This document shows, in pieces, positions 50,445-53,630 of a stretch of 64,000 bases of DNA. Within the stretch, counting starts at the first letter, position 1. Every line of letters starts with the position of its first letter. The DNA lies in the NCBI RefSeq assembly GCF_000955905.1, contig NZ_CP011097.1, forward strand, positions 956,582-1,020,581, given 5' to 3'. Source of the stretch: Candidatus Nitrosotenuis cloacae (GTDB taxonomy: Archaea; Thermoproteota; Nitrososphaeria; Nitrososphaerales; Nitrosopumilaceae). A model generated the notes under the pieces. That model had not been told where the DNA came from, made no database searches, and was given only the letters and a program-made list of their open reading frames with translations. The position numbers were made by a program, and so were the translations under genes.

Positions 50445-50914
50445 AGTCCAATCTCATATCAAAGACAGAAACTGCCGAGGTGCTAAAGCAAATCATCACA
50501 CAGTGGAAGGTGGAGCTACCAAAAATAAAAAACCTCAAAATCTACGAGCTTGAAGAAGGGCAAATCATAGTCGGCGAAGGCCTGACTGCAATCAAAATTG
50601 GAGAGAACTATTTGCCATTCCTATCAGATGCTGCAACTCTGGCAAAGTTCCCAAGTGTCATGGTGGATATGGGTGCAGTCAAGTTCATGTGTAACGGTGC
50701 AAATGTCATGCGACCTGGCATTCGAAGCTTTGGCGAATTTGAAGCAGGCCAAATTGTATGCATCATAGAAGAATCTCAGAAAAAATCACTTGCAGTAGGA
50801 CGATCTTTAGTATCAAGTAAAGAGATGGTAGACATGAACAAGGGAATCGTGATTGAGAATCTGCACTATATTTCAGACAAGTACTGGGAAGCTAAAAAGT
50901 CGATTAAAGACTAG
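50441..50914 (+). CDS. PUA-domain RNA-binding protein
   Basis: 157 residues. The C-terminal half is a PUA domain (about 75-150; VMVDMGAVKFMCNGANVMRPGI and AVGRSLVSS) preceded by an N-terminal domain, as in archaeal relatives of MCT-1/MCTS1 and tRNA-modifying enzymes. Likely binds RNA, perhaps in translation. Translationally coupled to the homoserine dehydrogenase gene, with no evident metabolic link. Its stop interlocks with the next gene over CTAG. Confidence 0.85.
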   Translation: MKSNLISKTETAEVLKQIITQWKVELPKIKNLKIYELEEGQIIVGEGLTAIKIGENYLPFLSDAATLAKFPSVMVDMGAVKFMCNGANVMRPGIRSFGEFEAGQIVCIIEESQKKSLAVGRSLVSSKEMVDMNKGIVIENLHYISDKYWEAKKSIKD

Positions 50915-51564
50915 TTGATTATTATTGGAATTCCAATTGCTGCAAATCTATCACAGCCAGATATTCCCCCAGCTGGGTGTATTGTCCACAGGTAATACTC
51001 GCCTGGCGAGCCACGGAAAAATACAGAGCCTTCCCAACCTGCCTGACCGTCAAGCTCCGGAATGCTTTGTTTGTGGATAAATGAGCCTCGTTTCTTGTCA
51101 TTGTTTTGTATAACATCATCTCCGCTAGTAGGGAATGGAATCGGTAATTGTCCGTGAGTCAAGGAGACAAGATCGACTCGTTTGTTGCTATCATTGGATT
51201 TGAACCATTGTGTCCAGACATCAAAATTAGTAAACCAGGTTCTGTCAAAAAAGAAAATATCGGTTGTAGAAAATCCAAGCTTTAGTGTTGCATCGCCATA
51301 TGTGCTCCCGTCTACGCATTCATCAATGAGTTTGTAATCAACCTTGTAGACTTGGTTTGAATTACCAGTATAATGGGCCCTAAAGTAATAGTCCACCAGA
51401 GCATCATTGTTAAGATCATAGTCATCCGCACTCTTGTCAGACACATAAATTGGCGCGTGCCCCTTTCCCAGAATCGTAATATCTGCATTGGATAAGCCAG
51501 CGGAGCTAATCATTATTGTCAGACTAACCAGAATAATTGCTAAAAGCGACCTGGCATTCATCAT
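50911..51564 (-). CDS. Secreted hypothetical protein
   Basis: 217 residues: signal peptide (about 1-27, ending SNADI) and a beta-rich extracellular domain rich in Asp, Asn, Gly and aromatics, with two Cys in the mature part (about 83 and 203) that may form a disulfide. No family recognised. Confidence 0.65.
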   Translation of the reverse strand: MMNARSLLAIILVSLTIMISSAGLSNADITILGKGHAPIYVSDKSADDYDLNNDALVDYYFRAHYTGNSNQVYKVDYKLIDECVDGSTYGDATLKLGFSTTDIFFFDRTWFTNFDVWTQWFKSNDSNKRVDLVSLTHGQLPIPFPTSGDDVIQNNDKKRGSFIHKQSIPELDGQAGWEGSVFFRGSPGEYYLWTIHPAGGISGCDRFAAIGIPIIIN

Positions 51565-51709
51565 AGTATAATGTGTATTATTGTATAAAAAAACTATTAT
51601 CTAAAATTGTATGATCATATTGTAAAACGGACTCTTCGATTTAACGGAAAATGAAAACAGTCAGAATTAAGTAATCTTGGATCAAATGAAATCAAACATT
51701 TAGAGACAT

Positions 51710-51886
51710 ATGAAAAATAATCTACAAATTCAAGGTAAGAGAGGTACTATGATACGATCTTTCATATTGCAAGATTCAATTAGTGACGTTGGGAAGATCA
51801 GAGAATTTGAAAGAGGAGTCGTAATACAGACAGAAAAAGACCTACAACTCGGTACGATTGAACGAATGGCTTCTGACACTGAATGA
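51710..51886 (+). CDS. Small ORF upstream of the alarmone synthetase
   Basis: 58 residues, ATG start, basic, no motif seen. It lies 52 nt before the RelA/SpoT-domain gene on the same strand in the same A+T-rich patch, so it could be a partner or leader peptide, or chance. Low confidence. Confidence 0.35.
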   Translation: MKNNLQIQGKRGTMIRSFILQDSISDVGKIREFERGVVIQTEKDLQLGTIERMASDTE

Positions 51887-51938
51887 ATCCATGCCAACAT
51901 CATTAAATCATTTCACTAAAATACAAATTTAGAGAAAT

Positions 51939-52973
51939 TTGTCACAACCACCAATACATGATATAAATTGGTATAGAGAAAATAGATCTATTTATCAAGA
52001 ACTTGCAGACAGGGTCGCAAAAATCTTGACTGAAATTTTAAATCTAAATAAAATAAACTACGCACTAATCCAATTCAGGGCAAAAAGTATAGAGAGCCTT
52101 CAAAACAAGACAAAAGATCCGAAATATGCATCTAGGACCTTGTTTGATTTAGCTGGAATTAGAGCAGTAGGTTATGTTAGAGACGATGTAGATAAGATCG
52201 TTAAAACTATAAAAGAAAATTTTGATGTTGACGATGCCAAATCTAAAGACAAATCATCTGAGTTACCACCAGATCGATTTGGTTACAGAGCAATTCACCT
52301 TATTTGTAAGATTCCTACGCAAAGATTGGCCTTGCCCGAATACAAAAAATTTAACAGTCTTTACTTCGAAATACAAATTAAAACAATTCTTGAACATGCA
52401 TGGGCAGAAATTGAACATGATAGAAATTACAAGTACAAAGGACTTTCTGATGATATTAAACGAGATTTTTATCTAACAGCAGGACTGCTAGAAAATGCGG
52501 ATAATCAGTTTGATCTGATCACAAAAAGAATTGATACAAACATTGATCGGATAACACAAAAAACAAAAGAAGGTAAATTTGCTGAAATCGAAATAGATCC
52601 TGCCACATTAAAACTACATCTAAGCCTGAAGTTTGCAGGATTAAAGAGTCTGAAACCATCTTATGGATTTGACGGAACAGGTAAGATCGAAGTTAATGAA
52701 TTATCACAGATGGGCATTCAGAATTTATCACAACTTGAGAATATCATTTCGGCAGATTTCATGGCAATTTTTCTATTCCAATATGAGAAATATGACCGAC
52801 AGACTATTCATAACCTAACTTCGATCGTCTTTGCGATTTTAATTATTCATTTTAGAGACAAATATCGTGAAGTCGCTGTAAAACTAAGAGATATGATTCC
52901 ATCAACTTTCGATACTTATTTACTTGAATATGATTTCGCTGTAAATGAAATTAGGAAAAAAATTTCCAACTAA
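51939..52973 (+). CDS. RelA/SpoT-domain (p)ppGpp synthetase-like protein
   Basis: 344 residues. The synthetase domain (about 40-215) shows RAKSIESLQNK, DLAGIRAVGY (substrate-binding Arg and acidic residue), FGYRAIHL (about 112) and EIQIKTILEHAWAEIEHD (about 145-162), all marks of RelA/SpoT nucleotidyltransferases. There is no HD hydrolase or TGS domain, so it is like a small alarmone synthetase with a long helical C-terminus. Such genes are scarce in archaea. TTG start. By hand counts the gene is near 33% G+C compared with 40-48% in several flanking lines, suggesting transfer. Confidence 0.87.
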   Translation: MSQPPIHDINWYRENRSIYQELADRVAKILTEILNLNKINYALIQFRAKSIESLQNKTKDPKYASRTLFDLAGIRAVGYVRDDVDKIVKTIKENFDVDDAKSKDKSSELPPDRFGYRAIHLICKIPTQRLALPEYKKFNSLYFEIQIKTILEHAWAEIEHDRNYKYKGLSDDIKRDFYLTAGLLENADNQFDLITKRIDTNIDRITQKTKEGKFAEIEIDPATLKLHLSLKFAGLKSLKPSYGFDGTGKIEVNELSQMGIQNLSQLENIISADFMAIFLFQYEKYDRQTIHNLTSIVFAILIIHFRDKYREVAVKLRDMIPSTFDTYLLEYDFAVNEIRKKISN

Positions 52974-53036
52974 TCATATCGTACAACATGCTGTGAAGCT
53001 AGAAGTTTTTTGTGCGTAAGAGGGGGTGTTCTATTT

Positions 53037-53630
53037 TTATAATTTTTCTGTAAACTCTTTTGCACCTTGCTTTGTTATAACAAGAACATCAATTCCATCA
53101 CCAGAAAATGAATCCCTCATGGTTGCTGCCTTGACTGACTTTATTGCAAGATCAGTTGCGTCTTTTTCTGACATGTTTTCTTTGAATTGATGATCTAAAA
53201 CACCCAGTGCCATTTCTGCACCGGTTCCAACTGCAGCATATTCATCAGGTAAAACAGAGCCCAATGGGTCCAAGGTATAGATTGTTGGCTTGCCAACCAC
53301 ACCACCCACAATAACCTGAGTCAAAAGTGGAAAGAATCTCCTCTCATACATCATGTTTGACATCATCTTTGCAATAGAATTCTGTGGTACATCGCGTTTT
53401 AGCTCCATTTTGCGGATTTTTGCCAGTGCCTTGATTTGTAAAACCAAAATCTGCATGTCTGCAACCAAGCCTGCAACGCTTGTGCCAACCTTATCGGTTA
53501 GTGTGAATGTCTTTTTTGTAGTCTTTGATACCAAGAAATTGCCATACGCGATTCTTTTTTCGCTTGCAAACACTACACCGCCATCAAATGTGATTCCGAC
53601 CGCGGTTGCACCTGGCATGTACATTGACAT
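53037..53630 (-). CDS. psmB: Proteasome beta subunit, probably non-catalytic
   Basis: 197 residues of 20S beta fold, with Gly before the mature N-terminus (PG-ATAVGI). The active-site Thr1 is Ala here, and position 17 is Glu (ASEKR), while Lys33 is kept. It should sit in the beta ring without cleaving peptide bonds. Archaea with two beta paralogues often have one such subunit; the active copy is outside this window. ATG at 53630. Confidence 0.9.
   Translation of the reverse strand: MSMYMPGATAVGITFDGGVVFASEKRIAYGNFLVSKTTKKTFTLTDKVGTSVAGLVADMQILVLQIKALAKIRKMELKRDVPQNSIAKMMSNMMYERRFFPLLTQVIVGGVVGKPTIYTLDPLGSVLPDEYAAVGTGAEMALGVLDHQFKENMSEKDATDLAIKSVKAATMRDSFSGDGIDVLVITKQGAKEFTEKL

Follow-up and report, generated by a model that had tools for sequence, protein, structure and literature searches.

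A lone RelA/SpoT alarmone synthetase gene of bacterial type in the genome of an ammonia-oxidising archaeon raises the questions of how it arrived there and what its product does. The gene lies in a 64,000-nucleotide stretch of DNA (hereafter the window, to whose positions coordinates refer) in a host genome of one 1.62-Mb contig. An archaeal host, supposed in a preliminary description made from the sequence alone, agreed with the archaeal proteasome and EF-2 genes and with the Thaumarchaeota casposons in its family. The synthetase was almost certainly cargo of a decayed family-1 casposon, a context that the preliminary description missed, with the right terminal inverted repeat (TIR) still at the 3' end of psmB (Table 1).

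Table 1. Coordinates of the insertion, its parts and its flanking genes in the window.
Feature	Position	Strand	Description
Left flanking gene	50911-51564	-	217 aa without a Pfam match; also found beside the empty site in the sister genome
Whole insertion	51607-53038		About 1.43 kb, GC 0.33; replaces about 25 bp of sister genome G013
Decayed casposon pPolB 3' end	51637-51932	+	Residues 462-564 and TAG stop, in three frames
58-aa ORF of the preliminary description	51710-51883	+	Not a gene; the middle one of the three polB scrap frames
Alarmone synthetase ORF	51939-52973	+	TTG start, 344 aa; PF04607 and PDC-S33 matches; RelQ/RelP fold predicted by AF2
Casposon right TIR	52974-53039	+	66 bp; ends GGGGGTGTTCTATTTTTA, supplies the psmB stop codon
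psmB, proteasome beta subunit gene	53037-53630	-	PF00227 at 1.7e-48; its 3' end is the integration target

Results

Insertion and Target Site

The empty counterpart of the insertion was found in a sister genome (G013), where blastn against locus L036 joined window position 51606 to 53038 with 25 bp between them. The flanks in G013 were 87-90% identical to the window at the DNA level, and the proteasome protein was identical. Fifteen further genomes of the genus had a close psmB orthologue (85-100% identity) and lacked the window's insertion. The 217-aa neighbour gene was also variable: in several genomes of the genus it was missing and the upstream gene was joined to psmB, which marks the locus as prone to insertion. 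Direct repeats of the att type around the insertion occurred at chance level only. Integration linked to a tRNA was rejected, the window containing zero tRNA.

The right TIR directly abutted the synthetase stop, and the motif GGGGGTGTTCTATTTTTA ended exactly on the psmB stop codon. The exact motif occurred once in the window (53022-53039), with 0.03 occurrences expected at up to two mismatches for a pattern whose two free positions were chosen after the window had been seen. The TIR aligned with seven other right TIRs and matched those of intact casposons at EF-2. Intact casposons (G008, G169) had perfect TIRs of 69-78 bp, the right one ending in ...GGGGGGATTCTATTTTTA, or a variant of it, directly on EF-2. 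EF-2 ends in E-F-I-D-K-E and PsmB in E-F-T-E-K-L, and both share E-F-x-[DE]-K-x-stop at a fixed distance from the stop. By this likeness, the EF-2-like end of psmB would account for the targeting.

Remnant of the Casposon

The polB tail aligned by blastx (51551-51990 against the G008 PolB) in colinear pieces covering residues 462-488, 500-547 and 547-564 (combined E 5e-11), and carried an in-frame TGA and two frameshifts within its last approximately 103 codons. Its TAG stop (51930-51932) ended 6 bp upstream of the synthetase start, from which spacing it follows that polB and the synthetase were once adjacent, operon-like genes. The 58-aa ORF was 39% identical to residues 496-546 of a 565-aa PolB, and in a search of 61 genomes its sequence recurred within frames of 597-622 aa that were PF03175 DNA polymerases of the PHROG viral type. 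Judged by these alignments, the ORF is a pseudogene fragment of a family-1 casposon PolB and not the partner or antitoxin of the synthetase.

The PolB family was present in 55 of 400 genomes of the class, accompanied by Cas1 (PF01867, 2.5e-48) and often located beside the 3' end of EF-2. Family-1 casposons carry a protein-primed PolB and target EF-2 (PMC4046053, PMC6563490), and casposons have been published for Thaumarchaeota (PMC6563490). The left TIR, cas1 and 5' polB were missing from the window element, the right TIR and polB tail being left, and there was zero PF01867 anywhere in the window's genome; since Cas1 was absent from the genome, the element is a dead remnant and not an active casposon. 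Like the window remnant, the published family-1 casposons (NitAR1-C1, NitNF5-C1/C2 and others; PMC4046053, PMC6563490) are Cas1-linked elements with pPolB, TIR and element-specific genes, inserted at the 3' end of a gene that is left undisrupted. The remnant differs from them in consisting of the right end only, in having an alarmone synthetase as cargo, and in its target, which was psmB as compared with EF-2, purD or intergenic sites (PMC4046053, PMC6563490).

A second casposon scar occurred in the same genome about 2.7 kb left of the window (L133:5907-6585, G000:C1), with polB residues 526-564, a 143-aa ORF on the opposite strand, and a TIR end at EF-2.

Sequence, Composition and Fold of the Synthetase

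The 344-aa protein matched PF04607 (RelA_SpoT; E 2.9e-20, residues 47-167), which was its sole Pfam match at E up to 1; HD, TGS and ACT were absent, in agreement with the lone synthetase without HD or TGS domains described previously. The NCBIfam YjbM model matched the protein below the model's own cut-off only, and its relatives of solved structure, by sequence, were YjbM, YwaC and RelP. In an alignment of 21 relatives, R47, K49, K57, D70, R75, G115, Y116, E144, Q146 and Y164, among others, were invariant, and S53 and H120 were kept in > 90% of the relatives. With the catalytic residues retained and the catalytic motifs complete, the protein classifies as a single-synthetase RelA/SpoT protein (SAS type) of predicted activity.

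The GC content of the synthetase gene was 0.327, about 4 SD below that of 47 other window ORFs (0.417±0.022), and GC3 was 0.25, about 4.7 SD below (0.416±0.035) and the lowest of the 48 ORFs. The A+T-rich patch noticed earlier was thereby confirmed. The codon adaptation index (rank 39 of 48 in the window) gave no foreign signal, so that the gene looks foreign by GC and GC3 but not by codon adaptation.

The AF2 model of the protein (pLDDT 85) had two parts, a synthetase domain (residues about 9-198) and a C-terminal region (199-344) that was all helical. Modelled residues 9-201 matched RelQ/RelP (YjbM, YwaC, SAS1/SAS2) with Z of 16.7-18.8 and 23-26% identity, compared with Z of 12.9 for CapRel, 10 for Tas1 and 7.0 for FaRel2. 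As modelled, the fold is nearer to that of housekeeping RelQ/RelP than to that of CapRel or FaRel2, which counts against a role as immune effector, as does the TTG start codon. Identity to the nearest relative (L009) was 26% in the C-terminal region vs. 49% in the N-domain, and the C-terminal region thus appears to be fast-evolving. Modelled alone, this region reached a pLDDT of 69 (low confidence) and gave no fold match, the CapRel antitoxin domain included. Residues 11-192 matched PADLOC PDC-S33, a candidate defence family, at E 3.5e-19, with the C-terminal part of the profile unmatched in the window protein. Genomic embedding is the basis on which PDCs were nominated as candidates, and they have been tested partly or not at all (PMC12988326).

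Distribution and Relatives

PF04607 was present in 8 of 398 genomes of the phylum and in 2 of 17 of the genus, the second copy within the genus (one further genome) being very distant from the window synthetase. The nearest relatives, about 39-40% identical, were found in Methanoperedens (L009), in a genome of the same family (G617), and on plasmids of Lysinibacillus and Cetobacterium. In the tree, which was a quick one with several long branches, the window protein fell into a set of six rows (SH-aLRT 98) that held Methanoperedens alongside Cetobacterium, Acinetobacter, Ruegeria and Leisingera, and the other nitrifier synthetases fell elsewhere. This scattered placement and the patchy occurrence point to independent acquisitions, without vertical descent. 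The patchiness in the phylum and the mixed bacterial and archaeal tree set bore out the earlier suggestion of a gene uncommon in archaea and horizontally acquired; wide vertical distribution with normal composition was not seen.

Relatives of the synthetase occurred as lone cargo genes, with no partner, in a phage-plasmid of Bacteroides, a prophage of M. abscessus, an inovirus of Vibrio and a 3.5-kb plasmid of Klebsiella. A pattern scan of IMG/VR viral contigs found no direct relatives of the synthetase, and a scan of IMG/VR for PolB gave no match either. A casposon link for the other archaeal synthetases was rejected, none of them having polB, cas1 or the TIR motif nearby.

Cargo Genes of Other Casposons

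The first genes after polB elsewhere included Dsr1-like (L132), AAA_15/OLD-like (L126), type II restriction (L122), DUF4062 with or without an NTPase domain/NACHT (L120, L127), Schlafen AlbA_2 (L134) and HD-CE (L150) genes, and one polB tail was followed, 0.6 kb downstream, by a SIR2/ThsA-like gene (L136). Roughly half of the post-polB genes scanned had no family at all. Among the loci scanned, genes just downstream of casposon polB were often defence-like. The window layout (polB tail, one ORF, TIR) was repeated at L134, L137 and L147, among others. Scored PolB fragments, from L134, L137, L147 and about 40 further places, comprised 43 with the C-terminal end and 2 with the N-terminal end, a bias that fits retention of the cargo end and also fits protection of the end abutting an essential gene.

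It is tentatively proposed, at somewhat less than even confidence, that family-1 casposons of ammonia-oxidising archaea shuttle single-gene antiviral systems in a dedicated slot bounded by polB and the right TIR, that once an element dies its host retains the slot gene, scarred by the adjoining polB tail and TIR, and that the window synthetase is the first archaeal alarmone-based immune effector, which a Cas1 transposon brought to the proteasome gene as a new target. In the literature covered, mostly outside subscription journals, no paper was found that connects casposons to alarmone synthetases or describes a polB-TIR slot.

Discussion

Proposed History and Function

A family-1 casposon with the order left end, cas1, small genes, polB, synthetase and right TIR would have integrated at the 3' end of psmB, Cas1 accepting this end through its likeness to the usual EF-2 3'-end target. 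Afterwards, the left TIR, cas1 and most of polB would have been deleted and the polB tail would have decayed, the synthetase staying intact. Over its roughly 103 codons the polB tail had at least 3 lesions, against 0 over the 344 codons of the synthetase, where about 10 would naively be expected if equal rates, equal age and neutrality are presumed. Because it is intact while the element has decayed, the synthetase was probably kept to the host's benefit.

The C-terminal region of CapRel serves as antitoxin as well as sensor, and no other part of that protein is less conserved (PMC9712102). An autoinhibited, infection-triggered synthetase is favoured by analogy, since the C-terminal region of CapRel is likewise variable. 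The RelQ/RelP-like domain would be held in check, probably by the variable C-terminal region, until a viral trigger releases it; pyrophosphate would then move from ATP to a nucleotide (or to a tRNA 3' end), and this transfer would halt growth and viral replication. The product may be a nucleotide alarmone or pyrophosphorylated tRNA, the modelled fold leaning to nucleotides. A stand-alone immune effector is likely on these grounds, together with the conserved active site, the PDC-S33 match, the relatives carried as lone cargo, the defence-like genes found at the same position in other casposons and the lack of an HD_4 hydrolase, and the whole chain, from casposon delivery to an infection-triggered effector with a C-terminal sensor, is judged fairly probable. 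We know of no activity, toxicity or antiviral assay for any member of the synthetase's clade, nor of any experimental test of PDC-S33.

Other Explanations

A synthetase domesticated by the host as a (p)ppGpp-like regulator of nutrient stress, that is, an archaeal stringent response, would suit the closeness of the fold to RelQ/RelP. RelQ/RelP synthetases make (p)ppGpp. A SpoT/RelA-like gene of Nitrososphaera viennensis, moreover, was reported to be up-regulated under carbon limitation (PMC12542715). However, no HD_4-type hydrolase was found in the window's genome, which disfavours a balanced canonical (p)ppGpp stringent response, and carriage by a mobile element, occurrence in only one further, distant case among the 17 genomes of the genus, and relatives that are lone cargo genes also weigh against such a regulator, which is considered unlikely. 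Of the two functions envisaged in the preliminary description, the toxin-like effector remains plausible, and canonical (p)ppGpp signalling is not supported, given the lack of the hydrolase.

Alternatively, the synthetase could be an addiction or superinfection-exclusion factor that served the casposon rather than the host and has merely not decayed so far, as its intact ORF in a dead element and its operon-like position behind polB would allow. No element is left to benefit, however, the lesion counts differ between polB and the synthetase, and the antitoxin gene that addiction calls for is absent, making a factor in the service of the casposon improbable. The 58-aa ORF had been put forward as a possible partner on account of its position directly upstream of the synthetase, which would make the two a type II toxSAS toxin-antitoxin pair. 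But the same PolB that aligns to the ORF continues in two other frames, and this three-frame alignment ruled out the ORF as partner or antitoxin; profile searches gave the ORF no family match, antitoxin families included, and no short partner gene was found fixed beside annotated relatives of the synthetase. A pair of this kind is thus hardly credible, the supposed partner being a scrap of casposon DNA polymerase.

Related Systems and Implications

The window protein has the synthetase fold and motifs of RelQ/RelP (YjbM, YwaC, SAS1/SAS2) in common, and differs from them in its extra approximately 145-residue C-terminal region, its status as mobile-element cargo, its archaeal host and its lack of a hydrolase partner. 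CapRel-SJ46 and other fused toxSAS (PMC9712102) are likewise single-gene synthetases with a variable C-terminal region on mobile elements; the catalytic domain of CapRel-SJ46 is more distant, and the low-confidence C-terminal model gave no match to its antitoxin domain. The divRel of Methanosarcina acetivorans (PMC3153485) is likewise a lone synthetase in an archaeon without SAH, explained by HGT, but a mobile vehicle was identified for the window synthetase and none for the Methanosarcina acetivorans gene (PMC3153485).

The locus shows a route by which a lone alarmone synthetase reached an archaeon, namely a Cas1-driven transposon, and adds to casposons a new cargo, a new target gene (psmB) and a concrete candidate target motif. 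Cas1-driven transposons are the element class thought to be ancestral to CRISPR adaptation. If the proposed cargo slot exists, casposons, already proposed as the ancestors of adaptive immunity, would serve as carriers of innate immunity too.

The nearest nitrifier relative (G617) was located in a different kind of mobile element, with a truncated phage-integrase domain and a RelA_SpoT domain fused in one 405-aa frame (L077:3356-4573), a fusion that is perhaps a recombination scar.
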